Assembly (NCBI RefSeq): GCF_008016455.1
Contig: NZ_SAXU01000001.1
Coordinates: 372,001 to 436,000, forward strand
Reading direction: 5' to 3'
Source: Brachyspira aalborgi
Lineage (GTDB): Bacteria; Spirochaetota; Brachyspiria; Brachyspirales; Brachyspiraceae
DNA length: 64,000 bases
Under the pieces are notes generated by a model that saw only the letters and a program-made list of their open reading frames with translations, was not told where the DNA came from and did not search any database. This document shows, in pieces, positions 40,293 to 48,701 of the stretch. A program made the position numbers and the translations under genes. Position 1 is the first letter of the stretch, and each line of letters opens with the position of its first letter.

Positions 40293-42989
40293 ATGAGAAA
40301 AATTAAAAACAATAATGACAAAAAAGATAATTTACTTTCGCTCGGCAAATCATATTGCAAAAATAAAGAATACGAAAAAGCTATAAAAACTCTTTTAGAA
40401 TTTGCAAAATTAAATCCTAATAACTCCGAATGCTTATATTATTTAGGGCGTTCGTATAATGAAACAGACGAATACGATAAAGCGATAAAATATTTATTAA
40501 AGTCTATAAAATTAAATTCAAACGATTATATTGCTTTGCATTGGTTGGGACGCTCATATTTTGAAAATGACGAATATAAAAAGGCAATAAAATATTTATC
40601 GAAAGCTATAAAATTAAATAGCAAAAATAAAACCGTAGAACCTTATAACGATTATAGTTTATATTGGCTTGGTTGTTCATATTGTAAAAATAATCAATTT
40701 AGAGAGGCAATAAATACTTTGTCTAAATTAATAAAATTAGAGCCAAAGGAATATCTTAACTTTCATTGGTTAGGATGTTCTTATTATGGAAATGAAGAAT
40801 ACGATAAAGCAATAGAATATTTACTAAAAGCGATTGAATTAAATCCTGACGATTTTTTAAATTTTCATTGGTTAGGTTGCTCATATTTTGAAATTGGAGA
40901 TTATAAAAATGCTATAAAAATTTTATTAAAATCCATAGAATTGAATTTTGATTATTATCCTAATTATAATTGGCTTGGTTGTTCGTATTACGAAATCGGA
41001 GAATATAAACAAGCTATAAAATCTCTTAAAAGAGCGTTAGAATTAAATAAAGAAGATAGCAGTAATTGGTATTGGTTAATTCTTTCGTATCATAAAAATA
41101 AACAATTTGAAAATGCAATTAAATGTTATATCGAAGCTATAGAATTTAACAATAAAAACGAATATAAAGAAACTCTCAAATCGTTATTAAATGATATTGG
41201 TTTTAATGAAAATAATGCAAATAGTTGGGTTGTTTTAGGACATTTATATAATAAAGATAAACGGTATGCGGACGCTATAAAATGTTTTTTGAAAGCGATT
41301 GAATTAAACAAAAATGAATATAATTATTTTGAGTGGCTTGGAATTTCCTATTGTAAAAATAAGCAATATAAAGAGGCGATAGAAAATTTATTAAAATCTA
41401 TTGAATCAAAATCTGACAATTTTTCGACTTGGTTTTGGCTTGGAGCTTCTTATTATGAAAGTTTTCAATATAAACAAGCGGTAGAATCTTTATTAAAATC
41501 TTTAGAATTAAACCCAAGTAAAGAAGCTAAAGACGATATAGAATATTTATTAAGAGAAATTGGCAATTCTTATTTTCAAATCGGAGAATATGAAAATTCT
41601 ATAAATCTATGTTCTAAAGCGATTGAATTAAACAATAATAATTATCTTAATTGGCAACTTTTGGGAAGCATTTTCTTTGAAACGAAACAATTTCAAAACG
41701 GCGTGAAAGCTTTTTTAAGAGCTATGATATTAAACGAAAATGAAGAATATAAAAAGTTTATAGAACAAATATTAAAAAATATCGGTTTTGATATTAATAA
41801 CCCTGAAAATTTGAGCGGTTTGGGTTATTATTATTTTGAAATTGGAAAATATGAAGAAGCTATAAAATATTTATTAAAAGCTGTCGAATCAAACAATAAC
41901 GATAGCAAATCTTGGCAATGGCTTGGTTGTTCTTATCATGAAAGCAAACAATACGAAGAAGCGATTAAATCGTTATTAAAAGCAATCGAATTAAACCCAA
42001 GCGATAGTAAAAATTTTCAATGGTTAGGCGGCTCGTATCTTCAAAATAAAAATTATAAAGAATCTATAAATTCCTTAATTAAAGCGATTGAATTAGACGC
42101 TAAAAATTCTACGGAAGATTTTACGAATTATTTTATATTGGGGAAAGCGTATTTTGAAAATAATCAATATAAAGAATCTATAGAGAGTTTTTTGAAAGCA
42201 GTAGAATTAAACCCTTCAAATCATTTTAATTGGCAATGGCTTGGAATTTCTTACAATAAAAACGGAGAATTTGAAAAATCGATTGAAGCGTTAATTAAAG
42301 CTAACGAATTAAATTCGGAAGATGTCGGTAATTGGTATTGGCTCGGCATCTCTTATAATAAAAGCAAACAATACGAAAAAGCAATTGAATCTTTTAATAA
42401 AACTATCGAATTAGAACCTGAAAACGATAATCATTATTATTGGCTTGGAAATACTTATTATAAAATATGCGATTATGAGGAAGCTATAAAATATTTATCA
42501 AAAGCGATTGAAATTAATCAAAATAGTTCTATTAATTATAAATGGCTTGGGATGGCTTATTATACAATTGAAAAATATAAAGAAGCTTCGGAAAATCTTT
42601 TAAAATCGTCTTTATTATTAGATAGCGATTTTGAAACTTGGCGATTTTTAGGCAATTCTTATTTATTATTGAAAGATTATTATAACGCTTTTCATTCTTT
42701 TGAAAAAGGAATTGATTTTAATAAAGGTATTGAGATTAATTCAAATAATGATTATATTTTAAAAGAATCTGGAATTGATATTAATGATTCGTCCGCTATA
42801 GTCGTAATTAATGATAGTTCTATATTAAATAATTATGGCGTGGTTTTGGCTAATCTTAATAGAATTGAAGAAGCTAAAAAATATTTTGAAAAAGCTTTAG
42901 AGATAAATCCTAATAATGAAATGGCTAAAGATAATCTTAATAATTTAAATTCGTATTTGGATATTGAGAATTTGCATATACAAAAATAG
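40293..42989 (+). CDS. Giant TPR protein with WxWLG-type repeats
   Basis: An 898-residue, apparently cytoplasmic protein without signal or membrane segment. It consists of about 24 TPR-like units of ~34 residues following YxxAIKxLLKAIELNPxxxxNWxWLGxSYxExxQ, in which the usual TPR position is Trp-Leu-Gly. Units are very similar in DNA sequence, inviting recombination. N- and C-terminal units match the broken paralogue at 44013-45110. It has GAGG before the ATG. No catalytic domain; probably a protein-binding scaffold. Confidence 0.85.
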   Translation: MRKIKNNNDKKDNLLSLGKSYCKNKEYEKAIKTLLEFAKLNPNNSECLYYLGRSYNETDEYDKAIKYLLKSIKLNSNDYIALHWLGRSYFENDEYKKAIKYLSKAIKLNSKNKTVEPYNDYSLYWLGCSYCKNNQFREAINTLSKLIKLEPKEYLNFHWLGCSYYGNEEYDKAIEYLLKAIELNPDDFLNFHWLGCSYFEIGDYKNAIKILLKSIELNFDYYPNYNWLGCSYYEIGEYKQAIKSLKRALELNKEDSSNWYWLILSYHKNKQFENAIKCYIEAIEFNNKNEYKETLKSLLNDIGFNENNANSWVVLGHLYNKDKRYADAIKCFLKAIELNKNEYNYFEWLGISYCKNKQYKEAIENLLKSIESKSDNFSTWFWLGASYYESFQYKQAVESLLKSLELNPSKEAKDDIEYLLREIGNSYFQIGEYENSINLCSKAIELNNNNYLNWQLLGSIFFETKQFQNGVKAFLRAMILNENEEYKKFIEQILKNIGFDINNPENLSGLGYYYFEIGKYEEAIKYLLKAVESNNNDSKSWQWLGCSYHESKQYEEAIKSLLKAIELNPSDSKNFQWLGGSYLQNKNYKESINSLIKAIELDAKNSTEDFTNYFILGKAYFENNQYKESIESFLKAVELNPSNHFNWQWLGISYNKNGEFEKSIEALIKANELNSEDVGNWYWLGISYNKSKQYEKAIESFNKTIELEPENDNHYYWLGNTYYKICDYEEAIKYLSKAIEINQNSSINYKWLGMAYYTIEKYKEASENLLKSSLLLDSDFETWRFLGNSYLLLKDYYNAFHSFEKGIDFNKGIEINSNNDYILKESGIDINDSSAIVVINDSSILNNYGVVLANLNRIEEAKKYFEKALEINPNNEMAKDNLNNLNSYLDIENLHIQK

Positions 42990-43019
42990 AGTAGGGGAGT
43001 ATATTAAATTTTTTAAATT

Positions 43020-43047
43020 TTGACAAATAAAATTATTCTGTTATAAT
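43020..43047 (+). promoter_or_regulatory. Consensus promoter placing the rpn start codon at +1
   Basis: A perfect TTGACA (43020-43025), 16-bp spacer and perfect TATAAT (43042-43047). The expected start point, about 7 nt after the -10, is the A of the rpn ATG at 43054, so the transcript should be leaderless or nearly so. Confidence 0.8.
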
Positions 43048-43053
43048 ATTTTT

Positions 43054-43884
43054 ATGATTAAAAAAGATTTTATTGTATTAAACGACTATTTTATGCGGTT
43101 TCTTTTGGCAAAAGAAGATAGTCAAAATATTTTGAAAGATTTAATTAATTCCGTTAGAATTGATGCAGGACAAGAACCTTTTGAAGAAATTATAATTTTG
43201 AACACTTTTAATTTAAAGGAATCAATAAACGGTAAAGAAAGTATTGTTGATGTGAGAGCGAAAACTAAAAACGGCGAAACTGTAATTATTGAAATTCAAA
43301 GAGCGGGAAATAAGGCTTTTATTTATCGAGGAATTTATTATTGGGCAAAAAGTTATGCCGCGAATTTGAAAAAGAGTAAAAAATATGACGATTTAAATCC
43401 CGTAATAAGTATAAACATAGTCGATTTTAATTTAACGGAAAATAAAGACAAACCGCATAGTTGCTATTTTATAAAAGAATTTGATACAAACGAAATATTA
43501 ACAAACCATTTTGAAATGCATTTTCTTGAATTAAAAAAATTTAATGAAAAATCAAAATTATACGAACCGCTTTCAGATTGGTTTAAATTTTTAAGTATAA
43601 AAGAAAATTTGGAGGATAAAATGAAAGTATTAGTTGAAAAAAATCCCATAATGAAAGAAATTTATGACAAATACAATAAGTTTGTAAAAGACGATAATTT
43701 AACCGAAGGCTATACCGAGTGGGAGGAGAATTATTTTAAAATGCTAACTTTAAGCGAAGAGAGATTACAAGGTAGACTTGAGGAAAAAGAAGCAATGGCA
43801 ACTGCAATGAAAAAAGACGGAGCGGATATTAACCTAATCTCAAAATATACAGGCTTAACCATAGACGAAATTAAAAAACTTTAG
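43054..43884 (+). CDS. rpn: Rpn family PD-(D/E)XK nuclease
   Basis: A 276-residue member of the recombination-promoting nuclease/PD-(D/E)XK transposase-like family. The nuclease core is visible as SIVDVRAKTKNGETVIIEIQ (Asp near residue 71, E.Q near residue 84), followed by RGIYYWAKSYAANLKKSKKYDDLNPVISINIVDF, typical of the family. The C-terminal ~85 residues form the helical tail ending in the LISKYTGLTIDEIKKL motif common to Rpn proteins. No ribosome site precedes the ATG. An internal in-frame start at 43621 with a strong one is entered separately. It lies between two TPR paralogues. Confidence 0.88.
   Translation: MIKKDFIVLNDYFMRFLLAKEDSQNILKDLINSVRIDAGQEPFEEIIILNTFNLKESINGKESIVDVRAKTKNGETVIIEIQRAGNKAFIYRGIYYWAKSYAANLKKSKKYDDLNPVISINIVDFNLTENKDKPHSCYFIKEFDTNEILTNHFEMHFLELKKFNEKSKLYEPLSDWFKFLSIKENLEDKMKVLVEKNPIMKEIYDKYNKFVKDDNLTEGYTEWEENYFKMLTLSEERLQGRLEEKEAMATAMKKDGADINLISKYTGLTIDEIKKL
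43611..43615 (+). promoter_or_regulatory. Internal Shine-Dalgarno inside rpn
   Basis: GGAGG 5 nt before an in-frame ATG (43621). It is written with TTG GAG GAT, using GAG where this genome mostly uses GAA, which suggests selection for the RNA signal rather than the protein alone. Confidence 0.6.
43621..43884 (+). CDS. Predicted intragenic RpnS-type small protein
   Basis: Codon 190 of rpn is an ATG with GGAGG at ideal distance, giving an 87-residue C-terminal product starting MKVLVEKNPIMKEIYDKYNK and ending LTIDEIKKL. In E. coli, Rpn nucleases are inhibited by such in-frame C-terminal small proteins; whether that applies here is inference. The full-length start has no ribosome site, so the short form could be in excess. 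It could also be a fortuitous site. Confidence 0.5.
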   Translation: MKVLVEKNPIMKEIYDKYNKFVKDDNLTEGYTEWEENYFKMLTLSEERLQGRLEEKEAMATAMKKDGADINLISKYTGLTIDEIKKL

Positions 43885-44012
43885 TCCGTTATAGAATTTA
43901 AAATTTTCAAGTTGATAATCGCCAAACTATTTTATAAATCTACTAAATTAAATACTTGCAATTAATATACAAATACATTATAATAAAAAATAGTAGAATA
44001 TAGGAGTAATAA

Positions 44013-45110
44013 ATGCAAGAAACTAATAAAAACGAAAAAGATTTACTTTCGATTGGGAAATCTTATTTTGAAAAGAAAGATTATCAAAACGCTATAAAAA
44101 CTTTTTCAAAAGCTACGAAATTACAACCTGATAATATTGATAATTGGTTTTGGTTAGGACAATCTCATTTAAGAATTATGCAATATAAACAAGCTATAAA
44201 ATCTTTTAAAAAAGCTTTTGAATTAAATCCTAATAATAAATCAATATTAAATTTATTAGAGTCAACATATTTAGCGGACGAACAATATAAAAAAGTTATA
44301 AAATTATGTTTGGAAGCTATAGAAAAAGAGCCTAACAGCTATCATTATTGGCGACTTCTTGGCAAAGCGTATTATTTTAATAATCAACCTAAAAAAGCCA
44401 TAGCCACATACTTAAAAGCCATCGAATTTAATTCTAAAGACCCTATTATTTGGGATAGCATTGGTTTAATTTATGAAGAAAACGGACAACATAAAGAGGC
44501 TTTAGATTTTTTTGCAAAAGCCATAAAATTATCTCCTAAAAATAGCGGTTATTGGTTTAATATTGGCAATGCATATTTTGGCGATAAGCAATATAAAAAA
44601 TCTATATAAGCCTATTTAAAATCTATTGAATTAGAAGACGAAGAGCTTATAAAAAATCAAAGAAAATTATTATTAAAACATAGAGGTTTTGATTATGACG
44701 ATGCGAGCAGTTGGTTAACTATAGGGAAATACTATTATCTTGATAAGGAATATAAAAATGTTATAAAATGTCTTTTAAAATCCTATCAATTAGGAGGCAA
44801 TAATTTTGAAACTTGGTATTATATTGGCAATTCGTATTTATATTTAAAAGATTATTCTAACGCCATTAATTATTACGAAAAAGGAATTGAAATTAATTCT
44901 AACGATTGCGATATATTAAATAATTATGGCGTGGCTTTGGCAAAAATTAATAAAATCGAGGAAGCTAAAAAATATTTTAATAAAGCATTAAGGATAAATT
45001 CTAAACATAAAACTGCAAAATATAATATTGAAAATTTGAATTCTTTAAATATTGAAGGCTTATTTATTGAAGATAGTATGGCAAATTTATTAAAAACGAT
45101 TATGATATAA
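44013..45110 (+). pseudogene. TPR-protein gene interrupted by an in-frame TAA
   Basis: A paralogue of the 898-residue TPR protein with the same N-terminal style (DLLSIGKSYFEKKDYQNAIKTF). The first part encodes 198 residues and stops at TAA 44607-44609 within KKSI*AYLKSIELE. The context of other repeats (AIEAYLKAIE) shows a GAA-to-TAA change. The same frame then runs 166 codons through more TPR units (NFETWYYIGNSYLYLKDYSN) to a TAA at 45108-45110, and its end matches the C-terminus of the 898-residue protein. A ribosome site (AGGAG) is intact, so a 198-residue fragment may still be made. The single substitution suggests recent inactivation. Confidence 0.85.
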
Positions 45111-46098: not shown

Positions 46099-47637
46099 AT
46101 GAATTTTGAATGGACTAACTTTTACATGGAATTTGCTAACGAATTATTAAAGTATAAAGATAATCGTAAAGAACTAATTGATAAAATGAAATTAATCAAA
46201 GATATTAATATTTCAAAAATAACAATGGGAGACGATATAGCCCCTTTTAGTATCTTTGCATTATTTAATTATCAAGGAATTGCACACCATAAAAAAATAA
46301 ATATACTTAAAAGTATAAAAAACGAATTCAAAATTGAAGTCGAAACGCCGAAAAATTTTGATGGTATTCCAGCAATGAATATATATAAATTACGCTTTTT
46401 TGATACTCAAGGGCAACAAGCAAAAATAGATATTGAGAATTTATGGAATATTTTTGAAGCCTCTATTAATTACGCTGATAATAATACCAATGAAAATAGA
46501 GAGGCATTTATTAAATATTACAATTTGGCAAAAGATATAAAAGGCGTTAATTGGAGTTTAACAATGGGACTTTTTTGGATACGCCCATTTAAGTATGTAA
46601 ATTTAGATAAAACAAATAGAGAATATATAAAATTTAAACTGCCAAATCATAGTCAAAATATAAAACAACTTCCTAACGGTAAAGAATATATTAATTTATG
46701 CGATAATTTGCTTGAAGATATAAAAAATATTAATATTAAAGATTTCCCAGAATTATCTTATAAAGCTTGGCAATTTTCAAAATATGATAAAAATAAATTC
46801 TTACAAGAAGTTTATATGACCGATAAAGAATACGATAAACTTAAAAATTTAATACTTGATAAGAAAAATATTATATTGCAAGGTTCGGCGGGAGTAGGTA
46901 AGTCTTACGCTGCAAAAAGATTGGCATATTCTATAATCGGAGAAAAAGATAACGAAAGAGTAAAAATGATACAATTTCATCAAAGTTATTCTTATGAAGA
47001 TTTTATTATGGGTTATCGTCCAAATGAAAACGGTTTTGAATTGAAAGAAGGAGTTTTTTATAAATTCTGCGAAGATGCAAGAAATGACGAAGGAAACGAT
47101 TATTTTTTAATCATAGACGAAATAAACAGAGGAAATATAAGCAAAATTTTTGGCGAATTATTTATGTTAATCGAAAACGATAAAAGAGGCGAGGAATACG
47201 CTTTAGAATTGGTTTATAAAGACGATGAAAAATTTTTTGTCCCAGAAAATCTTTATATAATAGGTTTAATGAATACCGCAGATAGAAGTTTGGCAATGTT
47301 GGATTATGCTTTGAGAAGAAGATTTATATTTATAGATATAGAGCCAGCTTTTAATAAACCTCAATTTAGAAAAGATTTGGAAAGTAAAAATATTGATAAA
47401 GATTTAATAAATAAAATAATCGAAAAATTTACAAAATTAAACGAAACAATTAAAAACGATAAAACATTAGGCAAAGGTTATACTATCGGACATAGTTATT
47501 TTTGTAATAGAAAAAATTTGAGTAAAGAAGATTACGAAGATATTATAAATTATGAAATAGCGCCGACTTTAAGGGAATATTGGTTTGATAACGAAGATAA
47601 AGCTGAAAAAGAAATAAAAGAATTATTAAATATTTGA
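46099..47637 (+). CDS. mcrB: McrB-family AAA+ GTPase/ATPase of a type IV restriction system
   Basis: The motor subunit that translocates DNA and activates the McrC nuclease. The C-terminal AAA+ domain has Walker A GSAGVGKS (near residue 262), FHQSYSYEDFIMGYRP, Walker B YFLIIDEINRGNISKIFGEL and the McrB signature LMNTADRSLAMLDYALRRRF. The N-terminal ~230 residues are the recognition part. They show no resemblance I can see to the E. coli 5-methylcytosine domain but contain FDGIPAMNIYKLRFF and NWSLTMGLFWIRP, so the modified base or other signal is unknown. Four-gene order with two small ORFs and mcrC. Confidence 0.92.
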   Translation: MNFEWTNFYMEFANELLKYKDNRKELIDKMKLIKDINISKITMGDDIAPFSIFALFNYQGIAHHKKINILKSIKNEFKIEVETPKNFDGIPAMNIYKLRFFDTQGQQAKIDIENLWNIFEASINYADNNTNENREAFIKYYNLAKDIKGVNWSLTMGLFWIRPFKYVNLDKTNREYIKFKLPNHSQNIKQLPNGKEYINLCDNLLEDIKNINIKDFPELSYKAWQFSKYDKNKFLQEVYMTDKEYDKLKNLILDKKNIILQGSAGVGKSYAAKRLAYSIIGEKDNERVKMIQFHQSYSYEDFIMGYRPNENGFELKEGVFYKFCEDARNDEGNDYFLIIDEINRGNISKIFGELFMLIENDKRGEEYALELVYKDDEKFFVPENLYIIGLMNTADRSLAMLDYALRRRFIFIDIEPAFNKPQFRKDLESKNIDKDLINKIIEKFTKLNETIKNDKTLGKGYTIGHSYFCNRKNLSKEDYEDIINYEIAPTLREYWFDNEDKAEKEIKELLNI

Positions 47638-47639
47638 TT

Positions 47640-48701
47640 ATGAATAATATACCTATAAAAAATATTTATTATATGCTCTGTTATGCTTGGAATATAATTG
47701 ACGAAATTAACGATATAGAATTTGGAGATGAAAAATTTGAAAATATTTATAATTTAATGGCTAAAATATTAGATTATTTTTTAAATAAACTTATAAAAAG
47801 AGGTTTCTATAAAAATTATATTCTAATTGAAGAAGATTTATCAATGCTTAAAGGAAAAATTGATTTTTCAAAGTCAATAAAAACTAATGTTATAAATCAA
47901 AAAAGATTAATATGTCAATATGATATTCTTTCTACAAATATTTTGTTCAATCAAATAATAAAATCTACGCTAAATAAACTTATAAATTATAAAAATATAG
48001 ACGAAGAATTGAAAAATAAATTAATAATTTTAAATAGATATTTCATAAAAATAAAAGATATAAAAATTAATAATAATAATTTCAAATCGCTAAAATATCA
48101 TAGAAATAATATACACTATAAATTTATAATTAATATATGCAAATTAGTTTATAATAATTTGATTTTAGATAAAAATTACAATGAAAATAGCGGACGATTT
48201 TATATAGATAAAAATGAAAATAAAACCATGCATAGAATATATGAAAAATTTGTTTTGAATTATTATAAAATCAATTATCAAAATTTTACGGTTAAATCTA
48301 AACCGATAAAATGGCAAATTAAAAATGATAATTTTAATTTTATACCAAATATGAAAACCGATATTACAATTTATAATAAAGAAAAATGCTTAATAATTGA
48401 CACTAAATATTATAAAGAAATTTTGAAAGAACATAAAGGCAAAAAAATGATAAGACCATCGCATATTTACCAAATATACGCTTATATGAATAATATAAAA
48501 TTTAAAGGAAATATAAAAGGAATTTTGCTATATGCGGGAACAAATGAAATAATTAATAAAAATTATCAAAAAGAAAAATTTGATTATAAAATCCAAGATA
48601 AATATTTTTCCGTTAGAATTTTAGATTTAAATAAAAAATGGGAAAATATTAAAAAACAATTAAACGAAATAGTGGAAGAGCATTTTAATATTGTTAAATA
48701 A
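47640..48701 (+). CDS. mcrC: McrC-family endonuclease subunit
   Basis: The nuclease partner of McrB. An N-terminal domain (IPIKNIYYMLCYAWN, LSMLKGKIDFSKSI) is followed by a C-terminal PD-(D/E)XK core with PNMKTDI and CLIIDTKYYKE (Asp and D.K residues around 240-262) and HIYQIYAYMNNIKF, all typical of McrC/5-methylcytosine restriction McrBC. The frame permits a TTG at 47634, but the ATG at 47640 immediately precedes the conserved N-terminus and is chosen; it is 2 nt after the mcrB stop. Apparently intact at 353 residues. Confidence 0.9.
   Translation: MNNIPIKNIYYMLCYAWNIIDEINDIEFGDEKFENIYNLMAKILDYFLNKLIKRGFYKNYILIEEDLSMLKGKIDFSKSIKTNVINQKRLICQYDILSTNILFNQIIKSTLNKLINYKNIDEELKNKLIILNRYFIKIKDIKINNNNFKSLKYHRNNIHYKFIINICKLVYNNLILDKNYNENSGRFYIDKNENKTMHRIYEKFVLNYYKINYQNFTVKSKPIKWQIKNDNFNFIPNMKTDITIYNKEKCLIIDTKYYKEILKEHKGKKMIRPSHIYQIYAYMNNIKFKGNIKGILLYAGTNEIINKNYQKEKFDYKIQDKYFSVRILDLNKKWENIKKQLNEIVEEHFNIVK

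Follow-up and report, generated by a model that had tools for sequence, protein, structure and literature searches.

The closest described systems are the Rpn nucleases of E. coli, in which the full-length toxin RpnL and the antitoxin RpnS form an intragenic toxin-antitoxin pair; the antitoxin action of RpnS has been published (Zhong et al. 2023, PMC10327210; structure 7TH0). For RpnA, RpnS was measured to dimerise with RpnL and to block the nuclease, and the rpn gene of C. difficile gives an internal product whose internal start was demonstrated by mutation (PMC10327210). How RpnL gets released from RpnS was a question left by its discoverers (PMC10327210). In E. coli, leaderless messengers are poor as a rule but favoured under stress (PMC3898074, PMC8138138), and leaderless starts are common in Leptospira (PMC5243855). 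In M. tuberculosis, leaderless messengers are over-represented among toxin-antitoxin pairs, at 32 of the 37 pairs that have a primary start (Cortes et al. 2013, PMC3898074). There, toxin and antitoxin are separate genes, whereas in Brachyspira a predicted leaderless toxin and an antitoxin led by an internal Shine-Dalgarno (SD) sequence would share one gene.

The window, a stretch of 64,000 nucleotides of the Brachyspira aalborgi genome, contained an rpn gene that is probably an intragenic toxin-antitoxin unit composed of a toxin with a leaderless start and a longer RpnS with an SD of its own. The locus shared with E. coli RpnL/RpnS a PD-(D/E)XK nuclease with equal catalytic residues, an in-frame internal start with its own SD, a C-terminal helical domain, and variable 4-residue repeats. 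The E. coli proteins belong to PF04754, whereas the window Rpn belongs to PF12784. The leaderless toxin start predicted in Brachyspira is not mentioned for E. coli RpnL/RpnS in the available part of the source publication (PMC10327210). An internal antitoxin start is a known principle, while the genus-wide leaderless toxin start appears to be new; no description of a leaderless toxin start combined with an intragenic antitoxin across a genus was found in the literature searched.

Identity and Neighbourhood of the Window rpn Gene

43054..43884 (stop included), + strand: rpnL, full-length Rpn nuclease, 276 aa (PF12784 E 3.7e-44; TIGR01784 E 3.4e-34)
43084..43329, + strand: catalytic residues D11 (43084-86), D66 (43249-51), E80 (43291-93), Q82 (43297-99), and R92 (43327-29)

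By its sequence, the window gene is a member of the Rpn nuclease family (COG5464; PF12784, TIGR01784) with predicted DNA endonuclease activity. Both profile matches exceeded the curated cut-offs, with 151.6 bits against 27.4 for PF12784 and 118.9 bits against 52.1 for TIGR01784. The PD-(D/E)XK residues D11, D66, E80, Q82, and R92 were intact and were invariant in 18 paralogues and 45 homologues; their counterparts in RpnA are D11, D63, E82, Q84, and R94 (PMC5350276). Translation of an active enzyme can start only at 43054, because the next in-frame ATG, that of codon 14, already lies past D11.

The genome of the window contained about two dozen rpn paralogues, several of them broken, most of which shared merely 40-45% protein identity with the window Rpn. 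Matches to rpn were found in 25 of the 26 Brachyspira genomes searched, and with a maximum of 42 matches in a single genome, Brachyspira genomes are able to house dozens of rpn units. McrB- and McrC-like genes were located at 46099-48701, ~2.2 kb downstream of the window rpn, and fit a defence neighbourhood. The PADLOC models gave no match to the window Rpn itself, and the phage records searched for Rpn relatives contained only 7, all distant.

Promoter and Predicted Leaderless Start of rpnL

43020..43047, + strand: sigma-70 promoter TTGACA-16-TATAAT with an extended -10 TG (43039-43040), 12/12 match
43054, + strand: predicted start of a leaderless mRNA on the first base of the rpn ATG, 7 nt past the -10

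The TTGACA (43020-43025) and TATAAT (43042-43047) elements were separated by a spacer of 16 nt, and the -10 element ended 6 nt before the rpn ATG, correct base for base as given in the preliminary description. A start 7 nt after the -10 would coincide with the A of the rpn ATG. The lack of a ribosome site at this start, also claimed there, was borne out, as an SD was absent and the duplex energy at Met1 was +1.0. The promoter was the sole 12/12 match in 42000-45000, where 39 promoter-like sites were found in all versus 20.3 expected. In the 2.5-Mb genome, the exact pattern TTGACA-N16-18-TATAAT-N5-7-ATG had 39 occurrences, of which 21 belonged to rpn genes and 2 to remnants of rpn, compared with 1 for a reversed-pattern control. 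Like the internal site described below, this placement was far above chance.

Across 25 Brachyspira genomes, 79 of the 90 scorable rpn starts had the promoter at the ATG, with the -10 exactly 6 nt away in 68. An SD of at least 4 bases was found at 1 of the 90 homologous starts versus 145 of 231 background ORFs. When identical upstream sequences were removed, 74 of 81 distinct ones passed the promoter test versus 19 of 231 background ORFs, which were taken from 324 kb of genomic stretches and were favoured by permitting any ATG within the first 50 codons. A promoter with at most one mismatch in 12 was found in 60 of the 81 versus 3 of the 231 (Fisher 3e-42), counts that are not independent events across the rpn homologues, which are kin. 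The distance from the -10 to the ATG was conserved, whereas the spacers and the DNA above the -35 varied across species; therefore, the promoter placement was not just copied DNA.

It is unlikely, in our estimate, that the internal SD is used while the toxin is not leaderless, with a further-upstream promoter or read-through from the preceding TPR gene providing a leader and the promoter at the ATG being secondary. The TPR gene lies on the same strand and stops at 42989, leaving 65 nt to the rpn ATG in which no terminator was found, and the promoter pattern was missing at 11 of the 90 rpn starts, some of which (L029-like) were without any recognisable promoter. However, the promoter at the ATG was the only upstream element common to the paralogues, the sequence above the -35 being mostly different, and even a leadered messenger would be without an SD (1 of 90).

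In Spirochaetota beyond Brachyspira, a similar promoter placement was recognised by eye in L219 (same family), L221, L222, L223, L234, and L243. An ordinary SD preceded the toxin start in the Priestia and Paenibacillus (Bacillota) homologues, and at the Leptospira rpn starts inspected, a clear SD and the Brachyspira promoter were both absent. Only Brachyspira and a few other spirochaetes appear to have the predicted leaderless toxin start.

Nearly all rpn paralogues of the window's genome had this promoter immediately at the ATG, and most carried the same 28-bp motif with a nearly identical spacer. An rpn-specific operator within the promoter was considered and rejected, because the motif also occurred at some unrelated genes. 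The 28-bp promoter including its spacer (0-2 mismatches) preceded L098, L100, L101, and L102; among these unrelated genes, named by eye, were one for a TetR-like regulator and one for an RsmD-like methyltransferase, whose start lies 9 nt from the -10. No RNA structure that could conceal the SD or the 5' end exceeded the shuffles.

Predicted Structure of the C-Terminal Protein

43611..43615, + strand: internal Shine-Dalgarno GGAGG, duplex energy -9.3, pairs with 16S CCUCC
43621..43884, + strand: rpnS, C-terminal protein of 87 aa predicted to be translated on its own from the in-frame ATG 5 nt downstream of GGAGG
43762..43881, + strand: brief run of 4-residue repeats, then the C-terminal tail module; shuffled between paralogues

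The internal ATG (43621-43623) is codon 190 of 276, and its product would have 87 residues. The AlphaFold2 model of this product (41 sequences) consisted entirely of helices, with a pLDDT of 80. When the model was compared with 350,542 PDB chains, the top fold match was 7TH0, E. coli RpnA-S (42 residues, 0.8 Å, TM 0.86 by target length, prob 0.99); the Foldseek E value was only 0.58 because the domain is tiny. A sequence profile also retrieved 7TH0 (E 0.023), aligned to the last ~40 residues, so that the Brachyspira RpnS matches E. coli RpnS in its C-terminal half. The C-terminal domain of the window Rpn is predicted by this model to fold like RpnA-S. The full-length AlphaFold2 model of the window Rpn (pLDDT 65) was too poor for a useful fold search.

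The predicted Brachyspira RpnS, with 87 aa in the window and ~84-125 in its relatives, was longer than the 49 residues of RpnA-S because its start lies ~45 residues further upstream. The likeness to E. coli RpnS first proposed for this locus stands for the in-frame C-terminal product and not for its length. The extra N-terminal helices of the predicted Brachyspira RpnS, which E. coli RpnS lacks, count against the intragenic toxin-antitoxin reading.

The C-terminal product might also be made and act as a structural or regulatory partner, such as a DNA-binding repressor of the rpn promoters, instead of an antitoxin. Its tail is helix-turn-helix-like, the fold matches after 7TH0 were mostly DNA-binding domains, and the promoter spacer is nearly the same at most paralogues of the genome. 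We consider this role distinctly improbable, since the top fold match, RpnA-S, is an inhibitor of measured function (PMC10327210) and the same 28-bp promoter also lies at a few unrelated genes.

The EGIK/EGIE-type 4-residue repeats varied in number among paralogues, and the window copy had a short stretch only. The last ~34 Rpn residues (window 43780-43881; L001-L023) were shuffled and freely exchanged between paralogues after the repeats. The pairwise identities of the nuclease domain and the tail were uncorrelated (r = 0.03), while residues 186-244 gave 0.97. The DNA tails of L002 and L019 were near-identical up to the stop codon despite nuclease domains of 42% identity.

Conservation of the Predicted Internal Start

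43721..43743, + strand: second SD-like site GGGAGGAG (43721-43728), 12 nt before the ATG of codon 230, near the E. coli-type start, energy -8.2

The SD duplex energies were computed with the genome's own 16S 3' end, GGATCACCTCCTTTATTC, read from the sequence. In the window rpn, the energy was -9.3 at Met190, +1.0 at Met1, and -8.2 at Met230. The strongest internal SD belonged to the Met at the junction of the nuclease and tail domains in 80 of 80 full-length genes. The median energy was -9.3 kcal/mol at the junction Met and -1.1 kcal/mol at the other internal Mets, compared with ~+1 at the main rpn start and -5.6 at background starts. A second internal start of the E. coli type (Met230) was rejected, being weaker in the window and having a comparable later site in only 4 of the 80 homologues.

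The pattern GGAGG-N4-8-ATG was found at the junction in 61 of the 80 genes and nowhere else within any of them, and GGAGG outside the junction occurred in only 4 of 80. The remaining 19 genes contained GGGGGAG-N3-ATG, AAGGGGG-N5-ATG, AAGGAGA-N5-ATG, or GGAGG/AAGGAG at 11-12 nt. In a codon alignment of the 80 genes, the junction SD was present in every subfamily, while only 3 of 233 background ORFs had an internal in-frame GGAGG-N4-8-ATG.

The internal SD was encoded in 26 different local sequences, including LEDKM, MEEYM, KEAIM, REVIM, and KEEDM. For their amino acids, the codons at the site were TTG in 24 of 24, AAG in 13 of 13, AGG in 3 of 3, and GAG in 59 of 59 cases, whereas elsewhere in these genes the same codons made up 14%, 13%, 7%, and 18.5% of their synonymous sets, respectively. 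The wobble position of Glu at codon 187 was G in 95%, compared with 63% in the next best of 68 columns and a median of 11%. The residues varied (LED, MEE, KEA, REV, KEE) while the bases were constant, so that selection acts on the DNA and not on the protein alone. The preliminary description had reported GGAGG 5 nt ahead of an in-frame Met190 with an 87-residue product, which was exact to the base, and a GAG codon at the site, which proved to be the family-wide Glu codon there.

An intact product of 80-130 aa was encoded from such a site at 71 of 80 loci in the named-genome collection. Met190 was invariant across 45 homologues; deep outgroups kept the SD unchanged, with GTG as the start codon in L234 and TTG in L226. 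The proposed check for loss of GGAGG or Met190 in homologues was run and found no loss, which settled the point by sequence comparison. The closest homologue, L036 (= L124, B. catarrhinii; 89% identical), was cut by a contig end at codon 183, so that the nearest complete comparisons were 60-65% identical. Several other spirochaete families carried the internal site as well, at about codons 184-202, as did Leptospira, Paenibacillus, and Priestia. The PF12784/TIGR01784 rpn genes of the last three had an internal GGAGG-N8-ATG at codons 191-202, as in Brachyspira, and the earlier view of the internal start as a spirochaetal version has to be abandoned. The start at codon ~190 would be an old feature of the PF12784 branch.

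An internal transcription start exists in E. coli rpn genes, whereas a conserved internal promoter for RpnS was rejected in Brachyspira, the best matches lying at differing positions in different genes.

The position of GGAGG at the boundary of the nuclease core and the helical domain could suggest a ribosome pause that aids folding of the nuclease domain before synthesis of the tail, instead of a start site. A start codon 5-8 nt further on would be superfluous for a pause, and yet Met190 was kept in all 45 homologues and replaced by GTG or TTG in distant ones; moreover, the C. difficile rpn yields its small product from an internal start (PMC10327210). A pause site is very improbable on these grounds. 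That rpn is a decaying transposase-like multicopy gene, with signals inherited by recent duplication and meaningless, is scarcely credible, because despite the about two dozen copies in the genome and the several broken ones, the signals were kept at 40-45% identity and across species while neighbouring synonymous/coding sites changed, and the catalytic residues were invariant.

Proposed Mechanism

The anatomy of a leaderless toxin with an internal start, as first described for the window, was strongly supported by the sequence and turned out to be genus-wide. For the window rpn, we infer the transcription start, both translation products, their ratio, the inhibition, and the role in defence as follows. 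RNA polymerase would begin at the A of the first ATG and make a leaderless messenger, so that no ribosome-binding site would serve the initiation of RpnL. The 87-residue RpnS would be made from this messenger by 30S subunits that bind GGAGG at 43611 and initiate at codon 190. Having the dimerising helical domain but no nuclease, RpnS would dimerise with the RpnL tail and keep the toxin inactive. Given a near-perfect internal SD and the low efficiency usual for leaderless starts, RpnS would be kept in excess, although weak leaderless translation may not be assumed in spirochaetes, as leaderless starts are common in Leptospira. RpnL would act only when the balance is shifted, for example by infection or stress.

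Since leaderless messengers are favoured under stress, the ratio of toxin to antitoxin could shift with the state of the ribosome. The genus-wide combination of a leaderless toxin with a strong-SD antitoxin would offer a simple answer to the release of RpnL, whereby the state of the translation machinery would determine the ratio. The initiation mode might, rather doubtfully, be the activation switch that releases the toxin without degradation of the antitoxin. Impairment of SD-dependent 30S initiation, for instance by a phage, by damage to ribosomes, or through altered initiation factors, would reduce production of the antitoxin, while the leaderless toxin would still be made or even be made in larger amounts. 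If such a switch were true, every rpn copy in one Brachyspira cell would be tripped together.

Broken Copies and Inserts

Weaker additional support came from six broken rpn copies, whose frames were disrupted either in the internal SD itself or no more than ~40 nt upstream of it. L016 and L017 had a common 20-nt insert, L020 and L140 were each changed by +1, L138 by -1, and L139 by a +7 tandem duplication; the RpnS frame stayed open in all six. Five independent disruptions of ~11 fell in 40 of 850 nt (binomial 8e-5), where the total of 11 was counted by hand and two of the events were from metagenome assemblies with the SD itself altered. This clustering of frame breaks ahead of the internal start suggests that the toxin was lost and the antitoxin was kept. 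The 20-nt insert was rejected as a genome-wide repeat, having just 2 copies, both in rpn. In addition, an insert reading VTLTAGRRQEGE interrupted or extended the rpn copies L023 and L024/L025 of the same genome at residue ~105, resembling the in-frame insertion of a small mobile sequence.

Other Leaderless-Looking Promoters

At 11 loci on G000:C1, micro-ORFs are driven by consensus promoters of a second leaderless-looking family.

547885, - strand: micro-ORF locus L259
903309, - strand: micro-ORF locus L260
973804, - strand: micro-ORF locus L261
1396502, - strand: micro-ORF locus L264
1429206, - strand: micro-ORF locus L265
1668577, + strand: micro-ORF locus L267
1691320, - strand: micro-ORF locus L268
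1889838, - strand: micro-ORF locus L270
1915752, - strand: micro-ORF locus L271
2295311, - strand: micro-ORF locus L273
2460862, + strand: micro-ORF locus L274

Most of these micro-ORFs contained 5-nt or 7-nt tandem repeats (CAGCT, AAGCC, TACAC, AATTC, CCAATCG), and several were followed by a conserved AT-rich stretch and then by an SD-led gene, for lipoproteins and others. The repeat-bearing micro-ORFs are possibly a phase-variable leader-peptide module. The L274 frame continues without a stop across the repeat and on into the lipoprotein gene.
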